Shown here: in pieces, positions 1,211 through 63,135 of the stretch
How positions within the stretch are numbered: position 1 is the first letter of the stretch
Layout of the letters: the number at the start of each line of letters is the position of its first letter
Source of the DNA: Sabellastarte sp. h YS-2021
Taxonomy: Eukaryota > Annelida > Polychaeta > Sabellida > Sabellidae
NCBI GenBank assembly: GCA_964017235.1
Contig: OZ024935.1
Span: 7,068,001 to 7,132,000 of the forward strand
Reading direction: 5' to 3'
Length of the DNA: 64,000 nucleotides
The notes under the pieces: generated by a model
Database searches by the model: none
The model's input: only the letters and a program-made list of their open reading frames with translations
Told to the model about the DNA's origin: nothing
Translations under genes and position numbers: made by a program

Positions 1211-1639
1211 TTTATGTCAGCTGACTTGTCAGTCAGCTGACATTATGGCATCACTCTGCGGTGTCCGCGTCTGTGTACGCGTACGCGTCCGTGTGACAAA
1301 CTTCTTCTCCAAAACTACAAGACCCAGAGACATGCTGTTTTTTTTAAAAGATACCTTAACTATCGAGGATGATAAATCGTAAAATTCATGCAGATCTGTC
1401 TGTTCGTCTGTTCGCCAGAGCCATTACAAGTGAGGTACCCCCACCAAAGTGTGAAAATTTCAACACTTGATCACAATTTTCTCAGTGACTATTACAGGGA
1501 TTTCTCTCATATCTTGCATATATGTACTAGACCACTAGTAGATTCCCTTGTGTGAGTGTCAGACCTGGATCTTTCTTAATTATTTTTTTATGAATTTTTT
1601 AAATAATTTTTAATACATTAAAATTCATGAAATCATGCA

Positions 1640-3725
1640 CTAAATCAATTATAACTTGAAAATTATTACAATTAGAACATTTTGTTAAAATATGTTATTC
1701 AGCTACTTTTTTCATAGCTACAACATGGTGAGTAACTTGGGTGTCTATCTCAATAGCTAAGTGAGTAATAGCTACTTTTGGACTTTTCAGTAACTTCCAT
1801 CATGAGTAAAATCACTTGTAACTTGAAAACTATTGCATTTAGAGAATTTTGTACAAATATGTTATTCAGCTACTTTTGGGTCAGCTATAACATAGTAAAA
1901 TTTCAGACCTGTAGCTCATGGCATAGCCGAGTAATAGCTATTTTTAGGTTATCACTGTTGAGTAAATCACTCATAACTTGAAAAGTATTGCATTTAGAGT
2001 ATTTAGTTTCAATATGTTATTCACCTATTTTGGGGTCAGCTATAACATAGTAAAATTCCAGAGCTGTGGCTCATTGCATAGCTGAGTAATAGCTACTTTG
2101 AGGTTCTTACTCAACACTAAATCATTTATAACTTGAAAAGTATTGCATTTAGTGAATTTTGTGTAAATATGTTATTCAGCTACTTTTGGGTCAGCTATAA
2201 CATAGTAAAATTTCAGACCTGTAGCTCATGGCATAGCTGAGAAATAGCTACTTTTAGGTTATCACTGTTGAGTAAATCACTTATAACTTGAAAAGTATTG
2301 CATTTAGAGAATTATGTGTAAATATGTTATCCAGCTACTTTTGGGTCAGCTATAACATAGTAAAATTTCAGACCTGTAGCTCATGGCATAGCTGAGTAAT
2401 AGCTACTTTTAGGTTATCACTGTTGAGTAAATCACTTATAACTTGAAAAGTATTGCATTTAAAGTATTTAGTTTCAATATGTTATTCACCTATTTTGGGG
2501 TCAGCTATAACATAGTAAAATTCCAGAGCTGTGGCTCATTCCATAGCTGAGTAATAGCTACTTTGAGGTTCTTACTCAACACTAAATCATTTATAACTTG
2601 AAAAGTATTGAATTTAGAGACTTTTGTGTAAATATGTTATTCATCTACTTTTGGGTCAGATATAACATAGTAAAATCTCAGACCTGTAGCTCATTGCATA
2701 GCTGAATAATAGCTACTTTGATGTTCTTACTCAACACTAAATCATTTATAACTTGAAAAGTATTGCATTTACAGTATTTTGTGTAAATATATTATTCAGC
2801 TACTTTTGGGTCAGCTTTAACATGGTAAAATTTCAGACCTGTAGCTCATGGCATAACTGAGTAATAGCTACTTTTAGGTTATCACTGTTGAGTAAATCAC
2901 TTGTAACTTGAAAAGTATTGAATTTAGAGACTTTTGTGTAAAATGTTATTCAGCTACTTTTGGGTCAGATATAACATAGTAAAATCTCAGACCTGTAGCT
3001 CATTGCATAGCTGAATAATAGCTACTTTGATGTTCTTACTCAACACTAAATCATTTATAACTTGAAAAGTATTGCATTTACAGCATTTTGTGTAAATATG
3101 TTATTCAGCTACTTTTGGGTCAGCTTTAACATGGTAAAATTTCAGACCTGTAGCTCATGGCATAGCTGAGTAATAGCTACTGTTAGGTTATCACTGTTGA
3201 GTAAATCACTTATAACTTGAAAAGTATTGCATTTAGATTATTTAGTTTCATATGTTATTCACCTATTTTGGGGTCAGCTATAACATAGTAAAATTCCAGA
3301 GCTGTGGCTCATTGCATAGCTGAGTAATAGCTACTTTGAGGTTCTTACTTAACACTAAATCATGTATAACTTGAAAAGTATTGCATTTACAGCATTTTGT
3401 TAAAATATGTTATTCAGCTACATTTTAAATAGCTACAACATGGTGAGTAACTACTGTATCTATCTCAATAGCTAAGTGAGTAATAGCTATTTTGGACTTT
3501 TCAGTAACTTACATCATGAGTAAAATCACTTGTAACTTGAAAAGTATTGCATTTAGAGAAGTTTGTGTAAATATGTTATTCAGCTACTTTTGGGTCAGCT
3601 ATAACATAGTAAAATTTCAGACCTGTAGCTCATGGTATAGCTGAGTAGTAGCTACTTTTAGGTTATCGCTGTTGAGTAAATCACTTGTAACTTGAAAACT
3701 ATTGCATTTAAATTATTTAGTTTTA
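1640..3725 (+). repeat. 155-bp tandem array in element A
   Basis: The landmark gcatagctgagtaat recurs at 1921, 2076, 2231 and 2386, exactly 155 bp apart, and the array continues to about 3720 (some 13 copies). Typical lines are cttgaaaagtattgcattt and cagctacttttgggtcagc. Two subtypes differ in ttgggtcagc versus ttggggtcagc and in gctcatgg versus gctcattg; they alternate irregularly. The same unit fills parts of elements B, C and E. Confidence 0.9.
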
Positions 3726-3799
3726 TCCACCGGATAGCAGGATATGTTCTTCATTATAAAATCTTGACTGGAAATATTTTTGGCCTCGTTTTGAACAAA

Positions 3800-4900
3800 A
3801 CAAGATGGCCGCCACAGGTGTTTCTTTGTCAGTGATGAAAAGTGCTGATATCTCCCTTACTATTGGGCCTAGAGGTTTGGGATGGTAAACCAATGTATAG
3901 AAAATCATGGACTGGGAATCTTTTGGTGTGGTCAAATTTAACCTTGGACCCCTCATTCAAGGTCAAACGAGGATAGTCAAACTTAAAAGTGCCTATAAGT
4001 CGCTTATTACTGGTCCTACAGGTTTGGGATGGTAAACCAACCTATAGGAAATCATGGGCTGGGGATCTTTTGGTGTGGTCAGATTTGACCTTGGACAACT
4101 CCTTCAATGTCAAACGAGGATAGCCAAACTTAAAAGTGCTTATAACTCACTTATTATTGGTCCTACAGGTTTGGGATGGTAAACCAAGCTATAGGAAATC
4201 ATGGGCTGGGAGTCTTTTGGTGTTGTTGGATTTGACCTGGGACCCCTTCTTCAACGTCAAATAGGATAGCCAAACTTAAAAGTGCTTATAACTCACTTAT
4301 TATTGTTCCTACAGGTTTGGGATGGTAAACCAACCTATAGGATATCATTGGCTTGGATTCTTTTGGTGTGGTCAGATTTGACCTTGGACCCCTCCTTCAA
4401 GGTTAAACGAGGATAGCCAAACTTAAAAGTGCTTATAACTCGCTTATTATGGGTCCTAGAGGTTTGGGATGGTAAACCAACCTTTAAGAAATCATGGGCT
4501 GGGAATCTTTTGGTGTGGTCGGATTTGACGTTGGACCCCTCCTTTAAGGTAAATGAGGATAGCCAAACTTAAAAGTGCTTATAACTCGTTTATTATTGGT
4601 CCTAGAGGTTTGGAATGGCAAACCAACCTATAGGAAATCATGGGCTGAGAATTTTTTGGTGTTGTCGAATTTGACCTTGGAACCTTCCTCCAAGGTCAAA
4701 CGAGGATAGCCTAACTTAAAAGTGTTCATAACTGGCTTATTATTGGTTCCAGAGGTTTGCAATGTCAAATCATGGGCTGGGAATTTTTTGATGTGATCAG
4801 GTTTGATCTTTGGCCCAAATTAACCATGCTTATATCTCGCTTATTTGTGTTCCTAGAGGTTTGCAATGTCACACCAACCTATAGGAATCATGGGCTAAGA
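3800..4900 (+). repeat. 147-bp tandem array in element A
   Basis: The lines gtttgggatggtaaaccaa and atcatgggctgggaatctt recur every 147-148 bp (for example 4028 and 4175), about 8 copies, degrading toward the 3' end. Several units contain TTCAAGGTCAAA, which includes the TCAAGGTCA extended half-site of nuclear receptors. The sequence aagatggccgcc precedes the array at about 3802. The same unit follows the 155-bp array in element C. Confidence 0.85.
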
Positions 4901-5378
4901 ATCTTTTGATATGGTCAGATTTCACTTTGGGCTTTTCCAATTTTAAGCATGTTTTAATGGCTTTGGTGAGGATTCTTTCTGGTGCATACAATTTGTATCA
5001 GTTCTCCGATGTGATAGGTCTAATTTCAGTATGTTATTCACCTATTTTTTGGTCAGCTATTACATACTTAGTAGAATTAAAACTATTGCATTTCTTTAAA
5101 TGTGTTTTAACTTACTTTTTACACCTTAAGAGTTACTTCTTACTTTCCTTCTGAACACCATTTCCAGGGCACAACTTTTGTGTCCTTTTCTTCTGTCACT
5201 TCTATTCTGAAACTCAAAACACACAGTTAGCTGACACAGGGCCCGTTCACGGGCACTGATTGCTTGTTTGCATTTCCAATGGTACTGAGGATCTATTAGG
5301 AATCCCCAGTGCTCCAAGCAGAATCTACCAAACAATATCAAGGAAAAATTACTACAGGGGGCTTTCTATATTTTTCAG

Positions 5379-7400: not shown

Positions 7401-7550
7401 ATCCTTCAAAAATAGCTCAAATATTTAGTTATTACCATCATATATGCTTTATTTTTTTATTAAAGTTGTCTTAAATAATCCTACATCATACACAAGACCT
7501 CTGGTATCCCAATAACTTTGAAAAATAGAATTTTATTGCGTTAATACATC

Positions 7551-7724
7551 CTATCCAATGGACAATTTGCTAAACCGGTCGGCGCAGACCGGCCCGCTAA
7601 ATGTCAGAAATAGACGTCCTGTGTTTCCACCGGCTGGCCGGTCCGTAGTACTGTGCACTCCGCAGATGGCGCCTCGTACTTCCTTCCTGTCTAGACAACC
7701 TGACGTCATAGCATCTTTTTCGTT
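7551..7724 (+). repeat. Left inverted terminal repeat of the DIRS element
   Basis: It begins ctatccaatggacaatttgc and ends near catctttttcgtt. It reads in inverted orientation at 13487-13660 with a few mismatches (for example gcagatggcg versus ccatctgggg on the other strand). ORFs on either strand here are by-products of the repeat. Confidence 0.9.
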
Positions 7725-10979: not shown

Positions 10980-11675
10980 CATAAGAGACCCATATAGTGG
11001 CATCTCAAAAACAACTGGAGGGTACCAGAGTCACTAGAAAAGGTGATTCCAATGCCAAGGTGATTGCACTCATATTTACAAGGGTGGTTGCAAGAGGACA
11101 ATGTCCTTACAGGCCAACCATTACACCCAAATAAAACATGATCTGCAAATTTTACAGATTCATCAAAAGCAGGGTGGGGTGCTCACTTAAACGAACACAC
11201 TGCAGGAGGCACATAGTCCCTTCTGGAAAACAAGTTGCATATCAGTTACCAAGAACTCAAGGCAGTCTTTCTAGCCTTACAAGACCTCTGCATACACAAG
11301 ATAGTACTTGTTGAGACAGATAACACCACAGTGGTGTCATACATAAACACCGAAGGAGGCATGAGGTCGGGCCCACTTTGTGCTATACTATGGAGAATCT
11401 TGACCTGGTGCGCCAGAAATCAAGTAACTCTAAAAGCCCAACACATTCCAGGCCAGCTGAGTGTGGTCGCAGACAAGCTATCCAGGCTAGACCAGACCAC
11501 CCAAACAGAGTGGTCTCTTCTTCAGAAGGTCTTCCAAGCAATGTGCAACAGGTGGCACCGGCCTCAAATAGACCTATTTGCCACGAGGTTCAACAACAAG
11601 TTGCCCTTGTTTGTGTCACCGGTACCGGATCCCCTGGCCACAGCAGTGGATGCGCTCAATCTGCCATGGTAGGAT
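10980..11675 (+). pseudogene. DIRS reverse transcriptase C-terminus and RNase H, broken
   Basis: One frame reads WHLKNNWRVPESLEKVIP, then GWLQEDNVLTGQPLHPN, then FTDSSKAGWGAHLNEHTAGG, then LHISYQELKAVFLAL, VETDNTTVVSYIN and SVVADKLSR. These carry the RNase H acidic residues (Asp in FTDSS, Glu in QELKA, Asp in ETDN, Asp in VADKL). It ends with the DIRS-typical DLFATRFNNKLPLFVS and a stop at 11673. Four in-frame stops (10995, 11061, 11139, 11214) break the upstream part; from 11217 to 11672 the frame is open. RNase H normally removes template RNA during reverse transcription. The product cannot be made as one chain here, so the copy is dead. Confidence 0.85.
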
Positions 11676-11989
11676 CAGGAAGCATACACCTTCCCACTAT
11701 CCGCCATATTGGGCAAAGCGGTGATGTTGCAGGACGCCCCATACAAGAGAATCATTCTGATTGCTCCGGGGTGGCCCATCATGCCTTGGTTTTGGGATCC
11801 AGTGGCCATGTCCAGCCAAATCCCACTGAGCCTGCCCAATCTGCCCAACCTGTTGACACAACCATTCAATCAGATCCCTCACAGAAATCTGACAAATCTT
11901 AATCTCGATGCACGGCTCCTGGAGCTTCAGCATTCGAGGAGCAGGGCTTCGCTGAGGCGGTGGCAGCAAGAATTGAGGCTCCTCAAAGG

Positions 11990-13486: not shown

Positions 13487-13660
13487 AACGAAAAAGATGC
13501 TATGACGTCAGGTTGTCTAGACAGGAAGGAAGTACGAGGCGCCATCTGGGGAGTGCACAGTACTACGGACCGGCCAGTTGGTGGAAACACAGGACATCTT
13601 TTTCTGACGTTTGGCGGGCCGGTCTGCGCCGACCGGTTTAGCAAATTGTCCATTGGATAG
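13487..13660 (-). repeat. Right inverted terminal repeat of the DIRS element
   Basis: Reverse complement of the left repeat, from aacgaaaaagatgctatgac to ccattggatag. Beyond it, 13661-13704 is the right outer extension, whose complement is kept in the internal complementary region. Confidence 0.9.
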
Positions 13661-13704
13661 GGTATTAACTTATAAAAATTTAATTTACTTATTAAATTTG
13701 CAAA

Positions 13705-14509: not shown

Positions 14510-15915
14510 ATTAAGCCTTCTTTATATAAAGATGATTTATATTTATGTAATATAAATATTTATAGAAAATTCTCGGCCAACTATTGACAAAAATGATTTT
14601 GTGATTTCCAACTTCACCCTAAACTAAACTTATTTAGTGAATCTAACAATGCTATGAGTGATCATTCTAGAAGTTAAAACCCCTGTTTTGTTTTGTTAAA
14701 CATGATTTTTGAAATTTTGTACATTTGATTTCATACACCAAATATTCCAAGAATATTTCTTCTCAAAAATGGATTGTAATGTCTAATTCATAAACACAAA
14801 ACTGTGCCTTTTCTTGCTTAATAGTCACCCTTTGTGGACAGAAAGTGTTCATATAAACATCAATAGGGTTTTTAGTTAAACAAGTAGTAATCCCATTTCA
14901 TTTTGTTATCGCTCAAATCATGAAATCTGCAATCTTCAAGAACCTGTCATTGAACAGATAACCTAGTATTGTTTTAAGCTTTCTAATGACCAATACTTTG
15001 TCAAACAATAAACATGTTATATTAATAATAATAATAATAGTAGGATTTATATAGCGCAAAATTGATACAAATCCTCTAATGCGCTCCCGACCTTAACAGT
15101 TTGTGTTCAATTACAGTAGAAGTGAAACACTCTCCCTCTCTTAATAAAAACATCCGGTATTGCACGTGTTATTCATTTTAGTGCAATAGCCCCATAATAT
15201 ATCAAAACAATTTGGTGAAATTTTTTAAATCTACTATTACAGTTTCATTGTTAATCTCCAATCCATGAAATCCAGTGAATTGACAAGAAATTTTATAAAA
15301 AAAGTGTGATAATTTTGAAACTAATATCAGTTCCTCATGTCCTCTGTCTTATAAATAACACTCAAAATGTCAACGTGTTTGGTTACTCAAAATATCATTG
15401 TTTTCCCTCATTTATTATGTTCTTCTATTTCACAGATATGATTGGACAACATTGCTTCTTGTCAATTTTTCATGCTATCACATGCAATGTTAATTTTGAG
15501 TCTAGCCTGTGAGATTGAGCAGGAGGAATTGTAGCCTGTGCATAAAACATTTGACCTTGGCTGTGCTAGAATGTTTAGTTCTAACACATTCAGACATATT
15601 TATGCTGTCAATGACATATAGATTGCTGCATGTGATTATTATATAATTAAATGTACTTTTACATAATTGTGCTGTAGTCATAGACAGCTATACTTAAATT
15701 AATAAGTAGATCAATTAATAAATATTTACAGCTACGTTATTTTTAGAATACAAATTGATGCTGTTATATTGCTATACAGTTGCATTGTTTTCATACTTTC
15801 TCTACACAATTGCACTCATACTACTGCACTATTTGTAACACCATTAACACTATTATTGTATTTTAGTCCTTCTCTTTTCTAAATATATCCCCATGTTTAC
15901 TTATGATAAATATAA
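14510..15915 (+). repeat. Dispersed repeat X, copy 1
   Basis: The sequence from gatttatatttatgtaatat to cttatgataaatat aligns with 32513-33391 plus 36651-36935. Shared lines include ggccaacta, aaaatgattttgtga, cagttcctcatgtc and aattgtgctgtagtcat. Copy 1 carries a LINE-tail insertion (15014-15200) that copy 2 lacks, while copy 2 carries the 3.26-kb insertion that copy 1 lacks. A more diverged third copy lies at 59600-59800. Its nature is unknown; no protein motif was seen. ORF 15306-15512 is not supported. Confidence 0.75.
15014..15200 (-). mobile_element. L2-type LINE 3' tail or LINE-tailed SINE
   Basis: A (TAA)n run is followed by tttatatagcgcaaaattga and tctaatgcgctcc. This is the reverse complement of the 3' tail of the L2 copy at 17223-17264 (agcgcattagagga ... 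ttgcgctatataaa). It is absent from the matching place in repeat X copy 2 (about 32965), so it is a real insertion. No tRNA-like head was seen, so I cannot tell a truncated LINE from a SINE. Confidence 0.7.
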
Positions 15916-16011
15916 TATGGTTTCCAGACATTTTAGGCAACAGTTCTTATCCTATCTTTACCAAATTTGGCATGCAGGTTTATTGGGTTAATAGCTTGTA
16001 TGGGATTGCTT

Positions 16012-17290
16012 TTTGGTGGCTGTTGCACTCACACTGCTAGACCTCTCAGCGGCATTCGACACTATCGACCATGACATTCTTTTTAATTCCCTAAGAGATT
16101 GGTTTGGGGTTGATGGCACTGTGTTGAGGTGGATCAGATCCTATCTCTCAAACCGGAAACAGAAGGTTAAATTAGGAAATAGCTTTTCAGATGTGTTCTC
16201 ACTTCCGTATGGTGTGCCTCAGGGTTCTGTCCTGGGCCCCCTCCTTTTTACCCTTTACACAACCCCTCTCAGTAATATCATTTCCAATTTCAATGTCACC
16301 CACCATCTATATGCTGATGACACCCAAATATATCTAGCATTGGACAATAGGAATTTTGATTCCAGTTTCGCTGAGCTTACAGAGTGTCTCACATGTATCC
16401 AAAACTGGATGGCTGGCGTGAAATTGAAACTCAATCCCGAGAAAACTGAATTTATTATAATAGGTGATAGACAAGCCAGAGAGTCCCTCATAAATAAATT
16501 CCCTACTCAACTTCTCGGAAATTCTATTTCCCCTACTGATACAGTCAAGAACCTGGGTGTAATTTTTGACTCTGGAAACACCTTTTCCAACCACATAACT
16601 AATATGTGTCGAGCCTGCTACTACCACCTTAAGGACCTAAGACGTATCCGTAAATTCCTCAGTGTGGAAACTGCAGCCTTGCTTGCAAACTCAATGATCA
16701 GTAGTCGACTTGACTACTGCAATTCCCTACTTTATGGCATCAGTAAGTACAATGTTGCTAAACTCCAAAAGATACAAAATGCCCTTTGTAGAATTGTTTT
16801 TAGACTTGATAGAACTAGCCATGTCACTCCTTTTCTTCAAAAACTACACTGGCTTCCTATCACTTACCGTATATTGTTTAAGTACAATCTAATTACTTTC
16901 AAGGCTATAAATTTCTCTCAACCCATATACCTATCATCCTTGATCAAAACCAGTTGTCTAACACGTGGAAATCGTCTTTCTCTTTCCTCAGCCTCTCACA
17001 AAAAGGCCATCGGTAGGAGAGGTTTTGTAGTGGCTTCCCCCATAGAATGGAACAGACTCCCACAATCAGTACGATCACAACAAACAATAACAGGTTTCCG
17101 TAGCCAGCTAAAGACCTACTTGTTTAGACTAGCATATCCTCCACCATAGTACATCTCCCTGGCGGGCGCCAACCTTGGATCATGACCTCGAACGTCCCTC
17201 GACTTTCCCTTTTTGATTTCAAGCGCATTAGAGGATGTTGCATCAATTTTGCGCTATATAAATGCTTCTATTCTATTCTATTCTATTCTA
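16012..17290 (+). mobile_element. 5'-truncated L2/CR1-group LINE
   Basis: This insertion of about 1.28 kb has a reverse-transcriptase 3' half, a short 3' UTR and a (TTCTA)n tail (about 17264-17291), with no 5' part. The target was a satellite unit; left flank ggattgctttttgg and right flank gatagctctatagc rejoin cleanly, so any target duplication is very short. 5' truncation and a short tandem tail are usual for LINE copies made by target-primed reverse transcription. Confidence 0.85.
16013..17149 (+). CDS. L2/CR1-group non-LTR reverse transcriptase, C-terminal half
   Basis: The frame is open for 378 codons to the stop at 17147-17149. It begins at the truncation point, so there is no genuine start codon. 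Motifs in order: LLDLSAAFDTIDHDIL (about residues 8-23, first catalytic Asp), GVPQGSVLGPLLFTLY (about 69-84), HLYADDTQIYLAL (about 97-109, catalytic YADD), a thumb region rich in LRRIRKF and SRLDYCNSLLYG, and the typical C-terminal SHKKAIGRRGFVVASP ... FRSQLKTYLFRLAY. These are hallmarks of L2 and related CR1-type elements, which copy their RNA at a nicked target. The endonuclease and N-terminal RT part are missing, so the copy cannot move by itself. The intact frame points to a fairly young insertion. Minus-strand ORFs here are by-products. Confidence 0.9.
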   Translation: MVAVALTLLDLSAAFDTIDHDILFNSLRDWFGVDGTVLRWIRSYLSNRKQKVKLGNSFSDVFSLPYGVPQGSVLGPLLFTLYTTPLSNIISNFNVTHHLYADDTQIYLALDNRNFDSSFAELTECLTCIQNWMAGVKLKLNPEKTEFIIIGDRQARESLINKFPTQLLGNSISPTDTVKNLGVIFDSGNTFSNHITNMCRACYYHLKDLRRIRKFLSVETAALLANSMISSRLDYCNSLLYGISKYNVAKLQKIQNALCRIVFRLDRTSHVTPFLQKLHWLPITYRILFKYNLITFKAINFSQPIYLSSLIKTSCLTRGNRLSLSSASHKKAIGRRGFVVASPIEWNRLPQSVRSQQTITGFRSQLKTYLFRLAYPPP

Positions 17291-17867
17291 TGATAGCTCT
17301 ATAGCTAACTGAGTAATAGCTACTTTGCTACTTTTGAGTATCTCTTTGGTTTCCAGACATTTTAAGGAATGCTATTAAGCCTAGCTTTCTGAAATTTGGT
17401 ATGGAGGTTCATTGGGTTAATAGCTTGTATGGGATTGCTTTTGGGGATAATTGCTTCATAGATGAGTGAGTAATTAAGCGTCCCGCAAGGGACGCTTGTT
17501 TGGGTATGGGAGAGCTGCAGCCTCCGCCGGCTCCGCATTTTGTTTTCCTTATAACTCTGTAACCGTTAGGCGGATTCTTTTCAAATTTGGCAGGTTTAGG
17601 CAGTAGCCTTGGGGAATTTTTTTGAATATGCTGCAGTGACATTTCAACCAATCAGAGAGGTCACATGACCAAAAATGTCTTTTTTCGATGGGGAAGCTTG
17701 TCCGGATGATAACTTGAAAGGAATTTTATCAATTCACCTGAAACTTGGCAAATACATTCATTCTATTAAAATCTGGAAATCATTAGATTTTGGCATTGAT
17801 TGGTCAAGAAATGGCCGAGTAATTAATGATTAATTAATCATTACGAATATTCCAAATAAGGAAAACA

Positions 17868-18640
17868 CAAAAATGCTTATATCTCGAAAACCGTGCTAGA
17901 TAGAGCGATTTCGACGAAATTTTTGACCCGCAGGGTATATCTGCAGAGTAGCCATGCCAATTTTCAAAAAAATTTTGTCTCGCCAAAAATGGCGGCCATT
18001 TTGAATTTTTGAATTTTTCGCAAAAATTGCAAAACATAAAAATGCTTATATCTCAAAAACCGTGCTAGATAGAGCGATTTCGACGAAATTTTTGACCCAC
18101 TGGGTATATCTGCAGAGTAGCCATGCCAATTTTCAAAAAAATTTTGTCTCGCCAAAAATGGCGGCCATTTTGAATTTTTGAATTTTTCGCAAAAATTGCA
18201 AAACATAAAAATGCTTATATCTCAAAAACCCTGCTAGATAGAGCGATTTCGACGAAATTTTTGACCCACAGGGTATCTCTGCAGAGTAGCCATGCCAATT
18301 TTCAAACAAAAAATTTCTCGCAAAAAATGGCGGCCATTTTGAATTTTCGAATTTTTCGCAAAATTGCAAAACACAAAAATGCTTATATCTCGAAAACCGT
18401 GCTAGATAGAGCGATTTCGACGAAATTTTTGACCCACAGGGTATCTCTGCAGAGTAGCCATGCCAATTTTCAAAAAAATTTTATTTTGCCAAAAATGGCG
18501 GCCATTTTGAATTTTCGAATTTTTCCGCAAAAATTGCAAAACACAAAAATGCTAATATTTCGAAAACCGTGCTAGCCTACATAGAGCGATTTCGACGAAA
18601 TTTTTTATCTTCAGGGTATCTCTGCAGAGCAGCTATCCCA
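17868..18640 (+). repeat. 169-bp tandem array with AAAATGGCGGCCATTTT core
   Basis: About 4.5 units share tatatctcgaaaaccgtgct, tagagcgatttcgacgaaat and aaaatggcggccatttt. The spacing of the minus-strand frames (17834, 17964, 18133) reflects the unit and its length variants. It grades into the 133-bp array at about 18640. Related partial units lie at 30175-30425, on the other side of the 133-bp array. Confidence 0.85.
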
Positions 18641-18642
18641 AA

Positions 18643-42775: not shown

Positions 42776-43480
42776 ATGCGTCGGATGCCTGTTTGCATAT
42801 GGGAGGAATTCTCGCGGAAGGGTCCACCGGCTCCGCAAGTTTGCCTACCTATAGCGTCTTTACTAGTGGATGGAATTTCTTCAAACTTGGCACATATAGT
42901 TAGTACCCCTGGGAAAATTTTCTGAATTTGGTGCTATGACATTTCAACCAATCAGAGAAGTCACATGACCAAAAATAGCATTTTGCTTGTCTGGATGATA
43001 ACTTAAGTAGCGTTTGTATAGAAGAATATTTGCCTGAAATTTGATATATGGATACATGGTATAAAGATCTGCAAATGATTAGATTTTGGTAGACTTCCAT
43101 TAAAAAATGACTAATTAATTAAGCATTAAAATTTTTATTAACGAGGAAAATACAGATCCCTTAACAACTTCTAAACCGTGTGAGATAGAGCGATTTCGGC
43201 GAAATTTTTGGCCTGTAGGGTATATATGTAAGATACTCCATTTTCAATTTTTGAATTTTTGACAAAACTGGAAAAACTTAAAATTGCTTGTATGTCCTAA
43301 ATCATGCGGTATAAAATGATTTCGGCAAAAGTCTCGATCCACAGGGTATCTAAGCAAGATACTCTTTTCAAAAATGTCAGCCATTTAAAATTTTCAAATG
43401 TTTGCCAAAAAACTTAAAATTGCTTGTATCTCCTAAACCATTTTAAATTGTCAGCGTAATTTTGGCACTTGTAAAACCTA
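42776..43480 (+). mobile_element. Element G: degenerate family 1 copy
   Basis: tgcgtcggatgcctgtttgc, the ccaccggctccgcaagtttg box, catttcaaccaatcagagaa, gtcacatgaccaaaaat and gtctggatgataactt align with the left flank of element D (17478-17720). About two decayed units of the cgatttcggcgaaatttttg repeat follow. No 3' terminus was recognised. Confidence 0.6.
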
Positions 43481-47408: not shown

Positions 47409-47656
47409 TCCATGAAGAAGAATATAATCTTCATAAATCACAACAAATTTCTGAAATTAACATACAGATTTTAGTGAAAAGTAAATTTCATAAAAAGTGC
47501 AAGGTGTTGGTAGTATTGTTGCTTACAAAGATTCTGACAAAGGATTGTGTATTTATTTTAGACACTAAGATGAGTTTAAAATAAGTAAAAATGTGTAAAT
47601 CACTAGCTGTAATAAAATACATAATTTTGAAATTAATTATAATAAAATACATAATT
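47409..47656 (+). promoter_or_regulatory. Proximal 3' UTR with polyadenylation signals in a 30-bp repeat
   Basis: AT-rich sequence after the stop contains AATAAA at 47611 and again at 47641. Both sit in copies of a 30-bp direct repeat beginning aataaaatacataatttt (47611-47640 and 47641-47656). The second copy is cut by element E and resumes at 50539-50554. A third copy, with its own AATAAA, begins at 50555. These are the first polyadenylation signals after the stop codon and probably end the mRNA, although a longer 3' UTR is possible. Confidence 0.55.
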
Positions 47657-48049
47657 AAGCGTCCCTGAAAAAGGGCATTTATTTGTTTTCGCTTCAGTTC
47701 CCTCGCCGCCGCCACCGCATTATGGTCTCCCTTGAATATCTCCCTTATTATTGGAAGCTTTTTAACCATATTTGCCAGTTATATACTTTAGGCATGGGAA
47801 AATTTTCCACATGCTTAAATTTGATCGTTATCAAGGTCACATGATCAAAAAAATATTTTTGGGTACACCCACCCTTCATCACCGCTCAGCAAAATCTACT
47901 GAACACAGTGGCCTGTAATTTCATACACATGTTTCTGCTATCAAAAACGCAAGATGATTAGATTTTGGAAGCGATCCGATGAAAATTGACTGATTTATGA
48001 GTGATTTTCTCACAGCTATCAACCAGAAAGCTTAAAATTCATGTGAAGT

Positions 48050-48950
48050 ATTGCATTGAGAGCCATAAAATGTATTGGGGGGTAGTAGGAAACCATATGT
48101 GAAGAGTCTAGATGGCCGGTCAAATTGACCCCCTGACCGCCCCTTATGGGTCAAACTGGGGTAATAAAATAGCCGATTTGGTGTTTTTGCCTTATATCTC
48201 CTTTATTACTGCTTTTACAGCTTTCAAATGTATAAAGACGTATCGGGAAACCATATGTGAAGAGTCTAGATAGCTGGTCAGATTTACCCCCTGACCCCCT
48301 CCTTATGGGTCAAACTGGGGTCATAAAATAGCCGATTATATTGCACTACAATAGATTACCATGTGCTGTTCTGATTGCTGACTGATTGCTGTTCTCGGAT
48401 GGCCGCAGGCATCACGGCCAACGTCTTTAACAAAATAGACATTTATAGTTGGCCGTAGCCTCAGGTTAAAATTTTCAATTTTGTGTTTTAGCCTTATATC
48501 TTCTTTATTACTGCTTTTACAGCTTTCAAATGTATAAAGACGTATTGGAAAACCAGTCTAGATAGCTGGTCAGATTTACCCCCTGACCCCCTCCTTATCG
48601 GTCAAACTGGGGTCATAAACTAGACGATTTTGTGCTTTTGTCTTATATCTCCTTTATTACTGCTTTTAGAGCTTTAGAATGTATTAAGAGGTATTGGGAA
48701 ACAATGTGTGAAGAGTCTATATAGCCGGTCAGATTTACCCCCTGATCCCTCCCCCCTTACGGGTCAAAGTGGGGTAATAAAATAGCTGATTTTGTGTTTT
48801 TGCCTTATATCTCCTTTATTAATGCTTTTTCGGCTTTAGAATCTATTAAGAGGTATTAGGAAACCATATGTGAAGAGTCTAGATAGGCAGATAGATAGCA
48901 TCATGAAATAGCCGATTTTATGTTTTTGCCTTATATAAAACAAAATAAAG
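48050..48950 (+). repeat. About 150-bp tandem array (ggtcaaactgggg type) in element E
   Basis: Five to six units share ttatatctcctttattactg, gaaaccatatgtgaagagtc, cagatttaccccctgacc and gggtcaaactggggtcataa. One unit contains a short foreign insert at about 48345-48470. The same repeat fills element F. Confidence 0.8.
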
Positions 48951-48954
48951 CTGA

Positions 48955-49330
48955 CATTTTTATGTCTGCTGACGTCATGTCATTACTCTGCGGCATGGGC
49001 GTACACATGAACGACTTCTCCACCTAAACTACAAGGCCCAGAGACATGCTGTTTTTTTGTCTGCTCCGCAGAGCTTTTTATGTCAAGTCAGCTGACATTA
49101 TGGCATCACTCTGCAGTGTCCGCGTCCGCGTGAACAACTCCTCCAAAACTACAAGGCCTAGAGACATGCTGTTTTGTAAAAGATACCTTATCTATTGAGG
49201 ATGAAAAATTGTTCAAGGCATGCAAATCTGTCTGTTCATCTGTTTGCCAGAGCCATTACAAAGGAGGTACCCCCACCCGAAGTGTGAAAATTTCAACACT
49301 TTATCACAATTTTCTCATTGACTATTAAAG
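48955..49330 (+). mobile_element. Two truncated family 2 5' ends inside element E
   Basis: The line tttatgtctgctgacgtcat (about 48960) and again tttatgtcaagtcagctgac (about 49077) each lead into cattactctgcgg/catcactctgcag, CpG-rich words and aaggccYagagacatgctg. The second runs to ctcattgactattaaaggga and then joins a 151-bp unit directly. No family 2 3' end follows. Confidence 0.7.
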
Positions 49331-49339
49331 GGATTTTTG

Positions 49340-49900
49340 ACCTGCAGGGTAGTACAAGAGTATCCTGTTCAAAGGGGAAAAGTTTCATTTTCGCCACTTT
49401 TGGCAGCCATCTTGGATTTTATCGGAAAATGAAAAAGTGTGAATATCTCGAAAACCGTAAGAGATAGAGCGATTTCGAGCGAATTTTTGACCCGCTGGGG
49501 AGTACAACACTGTCCTATGCAGAGGGGAAAAATTTCAATTTTCGCCACTTTTGGCGGCCATCTTGGATTTTAGGGGAAGATAAAACATTGAAAATATCTT
49601 CAAAATGGTATGAGATAGAGCAATTTCGAGCGAATTTTTGACTCACCGGGTAGTACAACAGTATTCTGTGCCTAGGGGAAAAATTTCAATTTTCGCCACT
49701 TTTGGCGGCCATCTTGGATTTTAGAGGAAAATAAAACATTGAAAATATCTTCGAAATGGTAAGAGATAGAGTAATTTCGAGCTAATTTTTGACCCACAGG
49801 GTAGTAAAACAGTATTCTGTGCCTAGGGGAAAAATTTCAGTTTTCGCCACTTTTGGCGGCCATCTTGGATTTTAGCGGAAAATGCAAAATTGTGAATATC
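49340..49900 (+). repeat. 151-bp array, diverged units, in element E
   Basis: About four units related to 40670-42240 (ttttcgccacttttggcggc, catcttggattttagcgg, agagatagagcgatttcgag), more diverged than in element B. ORF 49837-50043 (minus) is a by-product. Confidence 0.85.
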
Positions 49901-50979
49901 TCGGAAAAGGTATTTCTTTCCCTGTAATGTTCGGCGGGAGATACATACCGCGGCAGTGGTTTTATTCTTTCAGCTATATCATAGTAAAATTTCAGACTTG
50001 TAGCACATTGCATAACAAAGTAATATCCACATAAACTATACAATGCTAACTTATTCAGAAAGAATCCCCTCCCCTCTCACCCTTTTTCATCCACGCTGCA
50101 GCAGAGAAAAGATTGCCTCTGTGTTTGGAGTGGGGGAATGTGTATATGTGTTTCCCTTCAGTGTTCCAGTTGAAGTGGGGGAATAAATATTGCATAAGAA
50201 AAGAAAAGTTCACTTTCACTGAGCTTTATTATGCCTAGCTGTGTAGATCAGTTGTAACTTGAAAATTATTGCATCTACAGTATTTTGTTTAAATATATGA
50301 CTCACCTACTTTTGGGTCAGCCATAACAGTAAAACTGCAGACCTGTAGCTCAGTGCAAAGCTGAGGAAAAGCTAATTTGAGATTCTCACTGTTCAGTAAA
50401 TCAGTTGTAACTTGAAAACTATTGCATTTACGGTATTTTGTTTAAATAGATTTTATTTTTAAATATGTTTTACACCTACTGAATACCATTTGCACCTTTG
50501 GGGACGCTTCGTTTTTGTTAGCAAAAACATTTTTCTAGTTTTAAAATTAATTATAATAAAATACATAATTTTAAAAGTTAATTATATTACAATTTTTATG
50601 TCGTCACTCTGCGTCGTGGGCGTACGCGTCCGCGCGAACAACTTCTCCTCCAAAACTACAAGGCCTAGAGACGTGCTGTTTTTTTTAAAAGATACCTTAT
50701 TTATCGAGGATGAAAAATTGTTCAAGGCATGCAAATCTGTCTGTTCGTCTGTTTGCTAGAGACATTACAAGGGGGGTACCCCCACCAAAAGTGTGAAAAT
50801 TTCAACACTTAATCACAATTTTCTCAGTGACTATTGCAGGGATTTCTCTCATATCTTGCATATATGTACTAGGCCAGAGGTAGATTCTCTTGTGTGAGTA
50901 TGAGACCTGGATCTGTCTTACTTTTTTTTAAATAAATTTTTTTAATAATTTTTAATGCATTAAAATTCATGAAATCATG

Positions 50980-53010
50980 CACAAAATCATTTATAACTTG
51001 AAAACTGTTGCATCTAGAGCATTTTGTTAAAATATGTTATTCAGCTACTTTTTTCATAGCTACAATATGGTGAGTAAGTTGGGTGCCTGTCTCAATAGCT
51101 AAGTGAGTAATAGCTACTTTTGGGCTTTTCAGTAACTTCCATCATGAGTAGAATCACTTGTAACTTAAAAACTATTGCATTTAGAGAATTTCGTGTAAAT
51201 ATGTTATTCAGCTACTTTTGGGTCAGCTATAACATAGTAAAATTTTAGACCTGTAGCTCATGGCATAGCTGAGTAATAGCTACTTTTAGGTTATCACTGT
51301 TGAGTAAATCGCTTATAACTTGAAAACTATTGCATTTAGAGAATTTCGTATAAATATGTTATTCAGCTACTTTTGGGTCAGCTATAACATAGTAAAATTT
51401 CATACCTGTAGCTCATGGCATAGCTGAGTAATAGCTACTTTTAGGTTATCACTGTTGAGTAAATCGCTTATAACTTGAAAACTATTGCATTTAGAGTATT
51501 TTGTTTCAATATGTTATTCACCTATTTTGGGATCAGCTATAACATAGTGAAGTTTCAGATCTGTGGCTCATTGCATAGCTGAGTAATAGCTACTTTGAAG
51601 TTCTCACTATTGAGTAAATCGGTTGTAATTGGAAAACTATTGCATTTAGAGAATTTCGTATAAATATGTTATTCAGCTACTTTTGGGTCAGCTATAACAT
51701 AGTAAAATTTCAGACCTGTAGCTCATGGCATAGCTGAGTAATAGCTACTTTTAGGTCATCACTATTGAGTAAATCAGTTGTAACTTGAAAACTATTGCAT
51801 TTACAGTATTTTGCTTAAATATGTTGTTCACCTACTTTTGGGTCAGCTATAACATAGTAAAATTTTAGACCTGTAGCTCATGGCATAGCTGAGTAATAGC
51901 TACTTTTAGGTTATCACTGTTGAGTAAATCGCTTATAACTTGGAAATTATTGCATTTAGAGTATTTTGTTTCAATATGTTATTCACCTATTTTGGGGTCA
52001 GCTATAACATAGTGAAGTTCCAGACCTGTGACTCATTGCATAGCTGAGTAATAGCTACTTTGAAGTTCTCAATGTTGAGTAAATCACTTGTAATTTGAAA
52101 ACTATTGCATTTAGAGAATTTAGTATAAATATGTTATTCAGCTACTTTTGGGTCAGCTATAACATAGTAAAATTTCAGACCTGTAGCTCATGGCATAGCT
52201 GAGTAATAGCTACTTTTAGGTTATCACTGTTGAGTAAATCACTTATAACTTGAAAACTATTGCATTTAGAGTATTTTGTTGCAATATGTTATTCACCTAT
52301 TTTGGGGTCAGCTATAACATAGTGAAGTTCCAGACCTGTGGCTCATTGCATAGCTGAGTAATAGCTACTTTGAAGTTCTCACTGTTGAGTAAATCAGTTG
52401 TAATTGGAAAACTATTGCCTTTACAGAAATTTGTGCAAATATGTTATTCAGCTACTTTTGGGTCAGCTATAACATAGTGAAATTACCGACCTGTAGCTCA
52501 TGGCACAACTGAGCAATAGCTATTCTCAGGCACTGACTGTTGAGTAAATCAGCTATAACTTGAAAAATATTGCATTTGGAGTATTTTGTTAAAATACATT
52601 GTTCACCTACTTTGGGGTTAGCTATAACATAGTGAAATTACAGACCTATAGCTCATGGCATAGTGGAGCAATAGCTATTTTCAGGTTCTCACTATTGACT
52701 CAATCAGTTGTAACTTGAAAACTATTGCATTTACAGTATTTTGCTTAAATATGTTGTTCACCTACTTTTAGGTCAGCTATAACAGTGCAAAAATTCAGAC
52801 ATGTAGCTCATTGCATAGCTGAGTAATAGTTACTTTGAGGTTCTCACTCTTGAGTAAATCAGTTGTAACTTGAAAATTATTACATTTAGAGTATTTTGTT
52901 TAAATATGTTATTCACATAATTTTTGGTCAGCTATAACATAGTGAAATTGCAGACCTCTATGTCATGGCATAGCTGAGCAATAGCTTCTTTCAGGTTCTC
53001 ACTGTTGAGT
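50980..53010 (+). repeat. 155-bp tandem array in element C
   Basis: About 13 units of the 155-bp repeat; the gcatagctgagtaatagc landmark is regular. Two subtypes alternate (cagctacttttgggtcagc and cacctattttggggtcagc), in places as pairs. Confidence 0.9.
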
Positions 53011-53840
53011 AAATCATTGTATCCAACCTGTAGGAAATCATGGGCTGGGAATCTATTAATATGGTCCGATTTGACCTTGGAACCCTCCTTCAAGGTCAAA
53101 TGAGGATAGCCAAACATAAAAGTGCTTATAACTCGCTTATTATTGGTCCTAGAGGTTGGAATGAAAACCATCCTATAGAAAATCATGAGCTGGGAATTTT
53201 TTGGTGTGGTCGGATTTCACCTTGGACCCCTCCTTCAAGGTCAAATGAGGATAGCCAAACTTAAAAGTGCTTATAACTCACTTATTATTGGTCCTAGCTG
53301 TTTCGAATGGAAAACCAACCTATAGAAAATCATGGGCTGGGAATCTTTTGGTGTGGTCGGATTTGACCTTAGACCCCTCCTTCCAGGTCAAACGAAGATA
53401 GCCAAACTTAAAGTGCTTATAACTCGCGTATTATTGGTCTTGGAGGTTTGGGATGGTAAACCAACATATAGGAAATCATGGGCTGGGATTCTTTTGGTGT
53501 GGTCAGATTTGACCTGGGACCCCTCCTTCAAGGTCAATTGAGGATAGCCAAACTTACAATTGCTTAGAACTCGCTTATTATTGGTCCTACAAGTTTGGGA
53601 TGGTAAACAAGCTACAGGAAATCATGGGCTGGGAATTTTTTTGTGTGGTCGGATTTGACCTTGGACCCCCTCCTTCAAGGTCAAACAAGGATAGCCAAAC
53701 TTAAAAAGTGCCTATGACTCACTTATTATTGGTCTGAGAGGTTTGGGATGGTAAACCATCCTAAATTCTTTGGCTGGGAATCTTTTGGTATGGTCAGATT
53801 TGACCTTTGGACCCCTTCTTCATGGTCGAACGAGGATATT
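53010..53840 (+). repeat. 147-bp tandem array in element C
   Basis: Five to six units share atcatgggctgggaatctt, cggatttgaccttggacccc and tccttcaaggtcaaa. ORFs 53040-53264 and 53332-53541 (plus) and 52932-53186 (minus) result from the repeat. Confidence 0.9.
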
Positions 53841-54121
53841 GCATTTATAGTATTTCTTTAAATATTTTTAACCTACTTTTTACACTTAAACAATTACCTT
53901 GTTACTTTATTTCATAATACCATTTGCAGGGCACAACTTTTTTGTCCTTTTCTTCTGTCAGCTTCGGAATATCTTTCGAACATGCTGTTCAGTTACCATT
54001 TACTGTATTTCTGTACAGCCCTTTCCCTGATAATTATGCTTTCCTCTCATTATCACCATCACAAATCAAAAACATTCAGTCAGCTGACACAGTGCCCGTT
54101 CATGGGCACTCTCCTCTTGTT

Positions 54122-58984: not shown

Positions 58985-59530
58985 CAAGGTGTCCGGTTGG
59001 GAGGGGCGGGTGGATGCCGGTGTAGGAAGTTGATACTTGGTGCATTGGTTAGGGGGTGTAGCTGTGCAACGTTATGGTGTGACCTTGATTTGACCTTTAA
59101 GCTTGCTGTAATGATCTTGAGTTTGAAGATCGTGTCTGGACCGTATCTCGGATACCGTAATGTGTAGAAAGTTGATACTTGGCAGGGATATTGGTTAGGG
59201 GGTGTAGGTGTGCAACATCATAGTATGACCTTGATTTGACCTTTGACCTTGCCATAGTGATCTGAACTATAAAATCTTGTCCAGGCTGTATCTCTGAAAC
59301 CGTAAGGTGTAGGATGTTGATACTTGGTAGGGACATTGGTTTGGGGGTGTAGGTGTGCAACGTCATGGTGTGACCTTGATTTGACCTTTGACCTTGCTGT
59401 AGTGGCTTTGACATATAAAATCTTGTCTGGGCTATATCTCAGAAACCGTAAGGTGTAGGAAGTCTATACTTGGTTGGGACATTGGATAGGGGGTGTAGGT
59501 GTGCATCATGGTGTGACCTTTCAATTTGGC
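58985..59530 (+). repeat. 146-bp tandem array (tgaccttgatttgacc type), forward arm
   Basis: About 3.7 units share gtgtaggtgtgcaac, gtgtgaccttgatttgacct, tttgaccttgctgtag, tatctcagaaaccgtaaggt and gttgatacttggtaggg. Landmark tgaccttg lies near 59078, 59226 and 59371. Each full unit holds tgacctttgacct, a direct repeat of a nuclear-receptor half-site with one-base spacing. ORF 59097-59414 (minus) is a by-product. Confidence 0.85.
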
Positions 59531-60169: not shown

Positions 60170-60990
60170 ATGTAATGAATACCGTTATAGTGCTAAATCC
60201 TCATCATATGACAAACTCTACAGTGCCAGATACCTATAGGGAGAAGTATATCTCAAATGCGGCAGTGGAAAACATTCTGGCCAGAGCCAAGGTCAAAAGT
60301 CATACTGCACAACTACACAATCCAGACAGTATACCTACCAAGCTAACAACTTCCCACACCTCATGATATGTGAGATACAGAACAGAAAATATTTCAAAGG
60401 ACATGGTTATTAAGGCACACCATGACGCATACTTACATCCCCCAAATAAATATCCCTGCTGAGTATCTACTTCTTACACGGCACAGTTTCCTAGACACCA
60501 GAGAAGACTTTAAGTAAAGGTCATTATGCAAAAATCAAAGGTGATATCAAGGTCACACCATTGTAATGCACAACTGCACCCTCCTGGTAATGTCCCTACC
60601 CTGGTTTCTGAGATATAAGCTGGACAAACAAAAGGTCAAATAAATGTCATGCCTTGACAGTGCATATAGCCCAAAATTAATGTCTACACCTAATATGAAT
60701 ATTCTACAATTTATGGCTTCTGATGTATAGCCAAGACAAGATTTTAAAGGTCGGGGTTACTATCGCAAGCTGAAAGGCCAAATCAAGGTCATACCATGGC
60801 ATGACACAGCCACGCCCCAACAAATATCCTTTCCAAGTATCAACCTCCTACTCCATAGTGTTTCCAAGATATAGCCAAGATAGGGTTGTAAAAGTCGGGT
60901 CACCATAAACCAGATCAAAGGCGAAACACAGGCCACACCATAACAGTGCACACCTATACCCCACAAACAATGTCTCGACCAAGAATGAAC
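60170..60990 (-). repeat. 146-bp repeat, inverted arm, degraded
   Basis: About five units of the 58985-59530 repeat on the opposite strand: aaggtcacaccattgtaatg, cacaactgcaccctcctgg, tttctgagatataagctgg, ccaagtatcaacctcctac. Spacing is irregular (about 143-260 bp), so some units are deleted or interrupted. ORFs 60760-60966 and 60848-61051 (minus) are by-products. Confidence 0.75.
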
Positions 60991-61921
60991 TTGTTATATG
61001 TAATAATTTCTGGACAAGATTTTTCCCACTGCTTGCCCAGTGGTACACCATGGGTTAAAACAATACCCACACAGCTTTTAAAACTCATAGTCGATGGGTC
61101 AAAAGAGCATTTAAAATCATTCATTCCTCAGTCAAATGTGATGCTAAAGAAAACCATCTTACTGTATACATGGCAAGTGTCATTCAATAAACATATATAG
61201 CAAGCTGTAACACTGCTGTGAATATAAAGGCTCATAGAGGATTTCACTGTCAGACCTCAGCAGTCAGTTGGGTTTGTTTATTCATCTAGATAACATCTAT
61301 AAATATGCCAAGAGTGAAAGTTATTGAGGTTCTTGTCCTGGTACAACAACTTTCCCAGTTAAAGGAATGGGGTAAAAGGTCACAAAACCTCAATGATTTT
61401 ACATGGATCTAAATCCTGTTTATTGTAAATTCTGACAAAGTTATAATATTTAAAATGGTGGAAAGATAATACTTGTTGTAACTACCAGATAATTTTTTCT
61501 GAACAAAAAAAATCAAATGTCAAATTCAGATTTAAAAAACAATGAACACCTTCAGATATGTTTAAACTGTAAATTTCTAATATTTTCAATTTCATTTCCA
61601 GCATGCACAACATTTTATGCAATACATTTGTTGAATGTACAGCTAAGATATCTTCAAATAAAAGTGTTGAAGCGATGATTTACCAGTGAAATGCTAAAAA
61701 TAATTGTGGCTTCCCTACTTAAACATCCCCGGATACTTATTTGGTTTCTTCCCCATTTATCACAGACCTGCTGCATTACCATCTTGCTTAAATATTCCCC
61801 TAACTACAAGGCCTATCAAAATGATTTTTGGCATTTAGGCTATTATCTACAGGTGTCTGGAAATGTTTTGGCCAGTATAATTATGAACTTTGACCTTTAT
61901 CAATCACATGATGAAAAATGA
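60991..61921. other. Unassigned AT-rich sequence
   Basis: No tandem period or exon was recognised. The ORF 61691-61921 abuts element F and has no motif. Confidence 0.4.
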
Positions 61922-62138
61922 TTAAGCGTCCCTGAAAGGGCGCTTATTTGTTTTTGCCTCAGTTTCCTTGCTGCCGCCGCATTATGGTCTCCCTTGAATA
62001 TCTCCCTTATTATTAAAAGGTTTCAAACCATATTTGGCAGTTATATACCTTGGGCGTGGGAAAATTTTTCTGCATGCTTAAATTTGACATTTGACCTTTA
62101 TGAAGGTCACATGATCAAAAACAACTTTTTCAAGTACA

Positions 62139-62166
62139 CCCCCCCCCCCCCCCCCCCCCCCCCCCC
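62139..62166 (+). repeat. 28-bp poly-C tract
   Basis: An uninterrupted C run after agta(ca)cc in the left flank of element F. The matching place in element E (about 47869) reads gtacacccacccttcatc, so the run has expanded in F. Its exact length is unreliable in any assembly. Confidence 0.9.
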
Positions 62167-62339
62167 GTCATCACAGTTCAGGAAAAACTACTTGCTACAC
62201 AGCCTTATACTTTGACATACCTGTTCATACTATCCAAAACGCGAGCTGATTAGATTTTGGGAGCAATCCCTTGAAAAATGTCTCATTTATGAGTGATTTT
62301 CTGACACCTTCCAATCTGAAAGCCTTAAATTTAGGTCAA

Positions 62340-63040
62340 CCCCCCTATTATCTTCTTAAGTATTGCATTTAGAGCCATAAAATGTACTGGGAGGTAATAG
62401 GAAACCATATGTGGAGAGTCTAAATAGCCGGTCAGTTTTACCCCCCGACCCCCCCTTATGGGCCAAACTGGGGTCATAAATAGCTGCTTTGGAGTTTTTG
62501 TCTTATATCTCCTTTATCGTTGCTTTTATAGCTTCACAATGTATTAAGAGGTATTGGGAAAGCATATGTGGAGAATCGAAATTGCTGGTCAGTTTTACCC
62601 CCCGGCCCCCCCTTATGGGTCAAACTGGGGTCATAAAATAGCTGATTTTGAGTTTTTGCCTTGTATCTCCTTTATTATTGCTTTTATAGCTTCTGAATGT
62701 ATTAAGAGGTATCAGGAAAACATATGTGGAGAGTCTAAATAGCCGGTCAGTTTTACCCCCCAACCCCCCCTTATGGGCCAAACTGGGGTCATAAAATAGT
62801 TGCTTTGGAGTTTTGCCTTATATCTCCTTTATTGTTGCTGTTATACCTTCAGAATGTATTAAGAGGTATTGGGAAAGCATATGTGGAGAGTCTAAATAGC
62901 CGGTCAGTTTTACCCCCCGACCCCCCCTTATGGGCCAAACTGGGGGTCATAAATAGCTGGTTTGGAGTTTTTGACTTATATCATTGCTTTTATAGCTTCA
63001 GAATGTATTAAGAGGTATTGGGAAAGCATACGGTGCAGCT
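62340..63040 (+). repeat. About 157-bp tandem array in element F
   Basis: The line taccccccgacccccccttat and variants recur near 62440, 62597, 62753 and 62911, with ttatatctcctttat and attaagaggtattgggaaag between. It is homologous to the element E array at 48050-48950. ORFs 62554-62742 and 62805-63011 are by-products. Confidence 0.85.
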
Positions 63041-63135
63041 TTGTGCATTCTTAGCTTTACAGCATGCTTATTAAAACCACAAAGCATTTTACTTTCAGGG
63101 ACGCTTCGCCTTTATTAGCAAAAGCATTCCTCTAA

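Follow-up and report, generated by a model that had tools for sequence, protein, structure and literature searches.

Satellite-carrying Helentron-like elements and the co-orientation of their neighbours in the genome of the annelid Sabellastarte

The stretch of DNA analysed here (the window, 64,000 nucleotides) lies at positions 7068001-7132000 of contig OZ024935.1 in the 1.79-Gb, 647-contig genome of Sabellastarte sp. h YS-2021, which was also searched. It contains eight elements with tandem cores that belong to four end families (F1-F4); all lie on the + strand, and six retain both ends. We classify them, with a probability of about 0.9, as non-autonomous Helentrons (HINEs) that carry their tandem units as passengers and would use a Rep supplied in trans. 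This classification is based on their end plan, on insertion into T-rich DNA without target duplication, and on an autonomous element of the same plan that encodes Rep, PIF1 and endonuclease domains. An earlier note on this DNA had proposed at least eight satellite-carrying Helentron-like copies in at least three families. Its observation is confirmed and its interpretation partly supported: the classification was largely right, whereas the novelties it proposed are mostly known. The new part, unexpected and outside the claims of that note, is the co-orientation of neighbouring Helentron-like elements, along with a T>A skew in their unrepeated flanks.

Elements of the window and their end plan

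The elements were defined by tandem-array detection, self-comparison and reading of the sequence. Their common plan comprises a 5' palindrome, the word of this palindrome inverted within the 3' end, a last hairpin, and CTAG, CTAA or CTTG before T. F1 and F3 start with TT-AAGCGTCCC within a palindrome and finish with GGGACGCTT, a hairpin of the GTTTTTGCTATGCAAAAAC type and, as noted earlier, CTAG or CTAA followed by T (CTAG then TT in F1, CTAG or CTAA then T in F3). F2 has two GTCAGCTGAC words at its start, and the same word, the hairpin GCCCGTTCAYGGGC and CTTG then TT at its finish. In the window, AAGCGTCCC gives 7 matches against 0.10 expected, the F2 3' hairpin 3 against 0.00, and GTCAGCTGAC, with at most 1 mismatch, 10 against 1.06, one of them (58315) outside the elements. 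The F4 word ATATCCCC is weak alone (6 matches against 1.54 expected; 2 of 100 shuffles reach 6), and what supports F4 as a family is its architecture, together with an empty site and the 40 copies listed, which are 99-100% identical. Two traits of Helentrons and HINEs are found here: subterminal inverted repeats with palindromes are present in six of the eight window elements, and a 3' terminal hairpin is clear in F1, F2 and F3. Moreover, the leaders of F1 and F3 are homologous in pairwise alignment (z 7.0-11.1), which together with the shared word AAGCGTCCC makes these two sister families. The idea of three unrelated families was therefore rejected; four families were found, F4 being newly separated, but F1 and F3 do not stand apart from each other. 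Scans of IMG/VR with three end patterns returned 0 matches, with records of the present genome possibly excluded, and a literature text search for the end words gave nothing relevant among the matches listed.

The F1 element E6 (17474-30574, + strand, as are all elements below) opens with the palindrome AAGCGTCCC-GCAA-GGGACGCTT and a leader, continues with a B169 array (17862-18641), an A133 array (18642-30071; 86 units, 85.9 measured) and a B169 remnant, and closes with GGGACGCTT, a hairpin and CTAG then TT. It seems to sit within an older F1-like element, inserted into its leader. The 3' part of an older F1-like element, E7 (30575-32463), consists of a B168 array (30633-32043) and an F1-type 3' end with CTAG then TT, and shows no recognisable 5' end. 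A 49-bp tandem duplication at 32440-32540 repeats the last bases of E7, including the F1 3' end, and thus leaves two CTAG ends. In addition to the eight elements, a decayed F1-like 5' leader with B units occupies 42778-43440 (+).

Three elements belong to F2, each ending in CTTG then TT. E1 (~1211-5266) has a 5' palindrome with two GTCAGCTGAC words and a leader, followed by an A155 array (1641-3723), a C147 array (3838-4930), the 3' word with 1 mismatch and the hairpin. E2 (~38986-42417) combines an A155 array (39407-40667) with a B151 array (40702-42234), and E3 (~50591-54119), whose 5' palindrome is deleted, an A155 array (50984-53021) with a C147 array (53023-53838). The F3 element E4 (47655-50538) is a mosaic: behind the F3 5' end and leader lie a D array (48061-48886), two F2 5' pieces (48949-49332), a B151 array (49333-49912) and A155 units (49970-50448), and an F2-like tail is fused to the F3 3' end, CTAG then T. 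An odd B-unit variant is common to E6 (30076-30161) and E4 (49878-49963), at 88% likeness. The second F3 element, E5 (61922-63135), has the palindrome AAGCGTCCC...GGGCGCTT, a leader, a D157 array (62349-63030), GGGACGCTT, a hairpin and CTAA then T. Finally, the F4 element (33392-36650) starts with the palindrome ATATCCCC...GGGGATAT and a GCC microsatellite, carries 351-bp units (33620-35435), and ends with GGGGATAT, a weak hairpin and CTAG then TT; an empty paralogous copy of its target site lies at 15600-15700 (+). The proposed count of eight copies on one plan thus holds for the number of elements, but only six show both ends, as E3 lacks the 5' palindrome and E7 the 5' end.

The elements had been described as having no open reading frame (ORF), and none of the three ORFs of at least 150 amino acids in the window is plausible as an element gene; the check covered this length class. 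The first encodes a reverse transcriptase of a long interspersed element (LINE), the second runs antisense over a B151 array, and the third (11378-11902), for which Pfam gave no match, is situated outside the elements.

Insertion sites, autonomous relatives and class

All 20 fetched F1 copies end in CTAG followed by TT, and ATT precedes the word in all 19 listed F1 5' ends (18 of the 20 loci, L018 being listed twice and L009 and L019 giving no 5' row). One of the L018 rows gives AACG for the word, and in a few other F1 5' ends changes occur further in. Four comparisons of occupied and empty sites show insertion without target duplication beyond the A^TT / T^T ambiguity, in agreement with the earlier reading of no clear duplication; such insertion into T-rich or TT DNA is a further trait of Helentrons and HINEs. 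For F1 in a C147 array (L026), the empty site is exact over 22 bp, and its undisturbed variant occurs three times nearby. For F4 in an F2 3' end (L020), the reference is the window F2 copy, and the two differ in several bases and, a little further downstream, by a gap of 3 bases. The site of the window F4 element differs by one base from 15600-15700, as does that of E4, in an AT-rich repeat, from an empty site read from the sequence. These sites also bear on whether the elements could be cut-and-paste elements with tandem cores, akin to miniature inverted-repeat transposable elements. Their non-coding nature and inverted repeats would fit, but the inverted word has a subterminal position at the 3' end, and none of the four sites shows a target duplication, which makes this reading extremely improbable.

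A search of the genome with the PF14214 profile gave 24 matches; the 14 that were fetched fall into several lineages, four of them in lineage I. Two copies of lineage I, 98-99% alike, could be read to both ends. This family I encodes PF14214 (Rep), in one copy within an open frame of 2245 amino acids, and the pieces read match PIF1 and Exo_endo_phos. Its 5' end has the palindrome GGYGGGTTGCG / GGYGGGTTGCGTGTAACCAACCCGCC and a GTCY microsatellite, and its 3' end reads CGCAACCCGCC...CTTG then T. In the family I loci L033/L029 and L031/L035/L037, there are two 5' palindromes, each followed by 3-4 leader units of 164-187 bp. The family I 3' end has 1381 first-look candidates in the genome, the best 40 at 98% identity or more. 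Locus L063 is a deletion derivative that keeps the leader units (99.4%) and the 3' end (99.0%) and has lost the coding part; L062 is a second one (99.8-100%), also without a coding part and preceded by C147-type units. The genome thus holds an autonomous Helentron with tandem units, together with its derivatives. Lineage III (L053, L057, L061) is a second Rep/helicase/endonuclease lineage, two copies of which share an inverted downstream F2/A133/A155 block (99.2% over 2.2 kb); in L053 the F2/A133 block runs in the opposite sense to the adjoining lineage III Helentron.

The family I element also helps to separate Helentrons from canonical Helitrons. The CTAG and CTAA ends of F1, F3 and F4 would fit the Helitron CTRR, and the insertion can be read as A^T. 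However, a palindrome at either end, with the word of the 5' one inverted in the 3' end, is the Helentron/Helitron2 plan according to the available text of PMC4067079, the 5' end has TT instead of TC, F2 and family I end in CTTG, and the autonomous element of the same plan has an endonuclease domain. Canonical Helitrons are thus an improbable explanation.

In the non-autonomous Helentron model, a Rep/helicase (plus endonuclease) made elsewhere would recognise the 5' palindrome and the 3' inverted word, hairpin and CTWR. It would copy one strand and join the copy at A^TT (= T^T) in T-rich DNA without target duplication. Everything between the ends would be copied along, and the tandem units would thereby be passengers whose number varies by copy. 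These units may partly derive from duplicated leader-type DNA, and might be swapped between families through unit homology and nested insertion. We infer the movement of F1-F4 in trans by such a Rep, the rolling-circle copying, the origin of the units and their exchange route.

The proposed genome-wide search for the ends was fruitful, with 3'-end candidates numbering 1956 for F1, 1494 and 1640 for F2, 1184 for F3 and 643 for F4; these counts are first-look candidates rather than confirmed copies, and the best 40 were scored per query. Full-length matches of F2 and F4 among those listed are 99-100% identical, which indicates that the copies are recent.

Several observations weigh against the HINE model. 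The F1 5' query yielded 151 candidates against 1956 for the 3' end, and many F1 3' ends may therefore be without this leader. An exact empty site was found in L026 only, the other three comparisons being imperfect. The 3' stems of F4 and of the autonomous family I are weak. The autonomous Rep/helicase element with matching ends that the earlier note expected was found as regards the plan, in family I, but none with the F1-F4 words appeared in a partial search covering both ends of family I and a single 3' side from each of lineages II and III. Finally, the lineage I leader unit showed no significant similarity to the F1-F4 leaders, the F1 score being reached by 31 of 1000 shuffles. Homology of this unit with either the leaders or the units of F1-F4 was rejected (26-37 of 1000 shuffles at best). 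Near the Rep lineages I, II and III, no F-family ends belonging to those elements were found, and an L052 query for the lineage II end returned mainly other repeats.

Tandem cores, exchange of units and other repeats

The core units measure 133-169 bp, in keeping with the nucleosome-length core of the earlier description, except for one of 351 bp in F4. A units have 133 bp in F1 and 155 bp in F2, and B units 168-169 bp in F1 and 151 bp in F2 and E4; C has 147 bp (F2), D 157-162 bp (F3) and P 351 bp (F4). Units and leaders were compared in 210 pairwise alignments, each with 100 dinucleotide shuffles. The A units of F1 and F2 are homologous (z 8.9-11.3), as are the B units of F1 and those of F2 or E4 (z 8.5-16.0), while B of E2 and B of E4 reach z 29.8. 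C and D are weakly related (z 3.5-5.6), one of the four values lying below its own highest shuffle. P resembles the leader of its own element (z 14.5), and this stretch of the F4 leader is perhaps a first, diverged unit. A133 units also adjoin F2-type DNA in L053, L061 and L023, at ~91-92% likeness to those of F1; the F2/A133 blocks of L053 and L061 are copies of each other (99.2%). Based on these neighbourhoods and the homology of units across families, units pass between end families.

Within F1, the order is largely fixed: B169 followed by A133 lies between the same ends in 18 of 20 copies, L019 being without the 5' B169 array and L023 without A133. The A133 arrays of 19 of these 20 copies have 3.7-30.1 units, and in L023 none lie beside the 3' end. 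The 86-unit array of the window is the longest among the 21 F1 copies examined and an outlier of its family (0-30 units in the 20 others). Identity within F1 arrays (0.90-0.97) is about the same as between arrays (0.92-0.96), for monomers cut at one anchor word, which missed some (58 of ~86 recovered in the window). This indicates that arrays are copied with the element and little homogenised in place. It likewise argues against ordinary satellite arrays that spread alone and acquired look-alike flanks, because units travel with the element. Such independent spreading would suit the array of 86 units, and the C147 units of L026, which take up all 3434 bp fetched to one side of its F1 insertion, but the constant B169-A133 order between the same ends counts against it, and we regard it as very improbable. 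No tandem core inserting independently of the ends was seen among the fetched copies, which were chosen by their ends.

In the 133-bp array of E6, 13 consecutive monomers match the monomers 14 places on at 99.94%, whereas the longest such run in 200 order-shuffled arrays is 4; these are recent block duplications, or possibly an assembly error. Mean identity exceeds the shuffled maximum at no lag (0.959 against 0.961), and a regular higher-order repeat was therefore rejected. The suggested growth of one core to higher-order satellite scale thus stands as regards length, since 86 units exceed the 29.3 and 48 of Crassostrea gigas, but the array is an F1 outlier and lacks a regular higher-order repeat. 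In L056, a 1041-bp tandem duplication carries B151 units, an F2 3' end and a 351-bp-type piece. In L054, a retroelement (1-3470) with RNase H-like and tyrosine recombinase-like frames, identified by eye, lies beside the B151 units of an F2 copy.

Similar systems have been described in C. gigas. The accessible part of PMC7492417 reports 11 Cg_HINE elements and 13 array types, with modular flanks and arrays. These elements resemble ours in a subterminal inverted repeat with a complementary inverted repeat (the 5' palindrome), a microsatellite, units of mostly 140-180 bp, a 3' subterminal inverted repeat with palindrome, insertion into T-rich DNA with no target duplication, and the presence of one or two types of array in each element. 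They differ, in the same partial text, in array length (29.3 units against 86 in the window), in that one cluster is assigned per flank pair whereas here units are common to several end families, and in that no autonomous element could be related to Cg_HINEs, whereas an autonomous Helentron with leader units and derivatives is present here. The available text of PMC12628747 describes the same array type across different Helitron elements of C. gigas and different arrays in one element, and that of PMC8268682 arrays of up to 48 monomers. The trading of units between families, proposed as possibly new, is thus real in the present genome but already reported in C. gigas (PMC12628747, PMC7492417, as far as their accessible portions go). 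HINE/DINE-1 elements and Helentrons, in the portion of PMC4067079 available, share the end plan, the T insertion, a Rep/helicase and endonuclease partner and, in some copies, tandem repeats, and differ in end words and core size. For Pearl, DTC84 and MgE of bivalves, compared by description only, Pearl has short arrays of ~160-bp units between HINE-type ends (PMC7492417, in part).

Other repeats of the window include a 146-bp array (H146, 59019-59520) and an inverted block ~70% alike (60306-60992), for which no ends were found. The LINE-type reverse transcriptase fragment spans 16013-17149, followed by a TTCTA tail, and is flanked by two ~100-bp pieces, 83% alike (15918-16016 and 17347-17445). 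An inverted pair (7523-7724 / 13487-13686, 93%) is perhaps a terminal-inverted-repeat transposon and matches L011 in both orientations, which makes it a potential control.

Orientation of neighbouring elements

Within 10 kb of the 20 F1 loci, other element types cover 21106 bp, all of it on the F1 strand, in each of the 14 loci that have any. After two loci with only F1-related B168 units were dropped, 12 of 12 remained co-oriented. Several of the co-oriented pieces are nested or abutting (L013, L018, L023, L026). Repeats shared between F1 loci after masking match 92 times in the same sense and 7 times in the opposite sense; grouped, 15 clusters are wholly same-sense and 4 are mixed (+4, -6), a control that is only partial, as some of the 15 represent internal stretches of F4 and E7 that had escaped masking. 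Exceptions to co-orientation are the H146 block at 60306-60992, on the - strand, and the lineage III Helentron noted above.

The range of co-orientation was assessed from 280 listed matches in the genome (seven queries, best 40 each); window-internal pairs were not counted, nor were pairs of an F1 5' and 3' end within 20 kb of each other. Pairs lie on the same strand in 3 of 3 cases below 20 kb, 5 of 5 at 20-100 kb, 5 of 8 at 100-200 kb, 2 of 2 at 200-300 kb and 12 of 18 at 300-500 kb; at 500 kb-3 Mb the proportion is random (69 of 145). Three of the eight pairs below 100 kb are between families and five within one; three of these five are closer than 6 kb, one being the tandem duplication of L056. 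Below 300 kb, 15 of 18 pairs agree, which 14 of 3000 within-family strand shuffles reach; for between-family pairs, the figures are 8 of 10 and 161 of 3000. A range of 300 kb, suggested by 11 of 11 pairs in the first 160 matches (three of them window-internal), was not upheld by 120 further matches: pairs below 300 kb with one of these agree in 7 of 10 cases, reached by 496 of 3000 shuffles. We therefore set the range at ~100 kb. According to the available text of PMC12628747, arrays within C. gigas Helitrons are oriented in different directions, unlike those of the present genome. A literature search of titles and abstract openings, covering few subscription journals, found no paper on orientation domains of Helitrons or Helentrons among those listed.

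For the flanks of F1 copies, library and shared repeats were masked and two loci of fewer than 1000 bases left out. Read along the element strand, 16 of 18 loci have a T>A skew (sign-flip p 0.0008) and 14 of 18 a G>C skew (p 0.16). Both skews are close to zero in the window itself (+0.009, -0.005). Some of the T>A skew could come from decayed elements that went unrecognised in the flanks. The elements themselves contain ATT and AAT in roughly equal numbers, but ATTA outnumbers TAAT in certain of them (12 against 1 in F3, 6 against 1 in C147, 177 against 108 in A133), with the reverse in others. This mixed balance makes target choice in nested insertions unlikely as a cause.

Based on these comparisons, the orientation of Helentron-type insertions might be dictated by the direction in which the local replication fork travels, with the lagging-strand template as single-stranded target; same-strand domains of ~100 kb across unrelated families would then form a fossil map of replication direction. 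We put this link forward as a tentative hypothesis and consider it rather unlikely, its odds being lowered by the five of eight pairs below 100 kb that lie within one family. Bacterial IS200/IS605 elements use HUH enzymes. Their orientation follows host replication and they share single-strand transposition, according to the accessible text of PMC5371812; they differ in being bacterial, and here orientation was compared only between neighbours and with base skew.

The co-orientation could also result from selection or transcription, for example if one orientation is tolerated in long introns, or from a tendency to insert locally in nested or head-to-tail fashion, a possibility to which we give somewhat less than even odds. 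A range of ~100 kb fits genes too, and T>A skew also marks transcribed strands. For local insertion speak the several F1 copies inside other elements and, again, the within-family pairs. In contrast, complete agreement in 14 loci would rarely be given by selection alone. The co-orientation itself is the part worth following.

Collectively, these results extend the oyster picture of Helentron-carried satellites to another, larger genome, and the autonomous Helentron with nucleosome-length units supports the view that such satellites arose within the transposon. Should the co-orientation be confirmed and tied to replication, eukaryotic rolling-circle transposons would show the same coupling of targeting to replication as is known from bacteria, and element orientation would offer a sequence-only way to read the direction of replication in the germ line.

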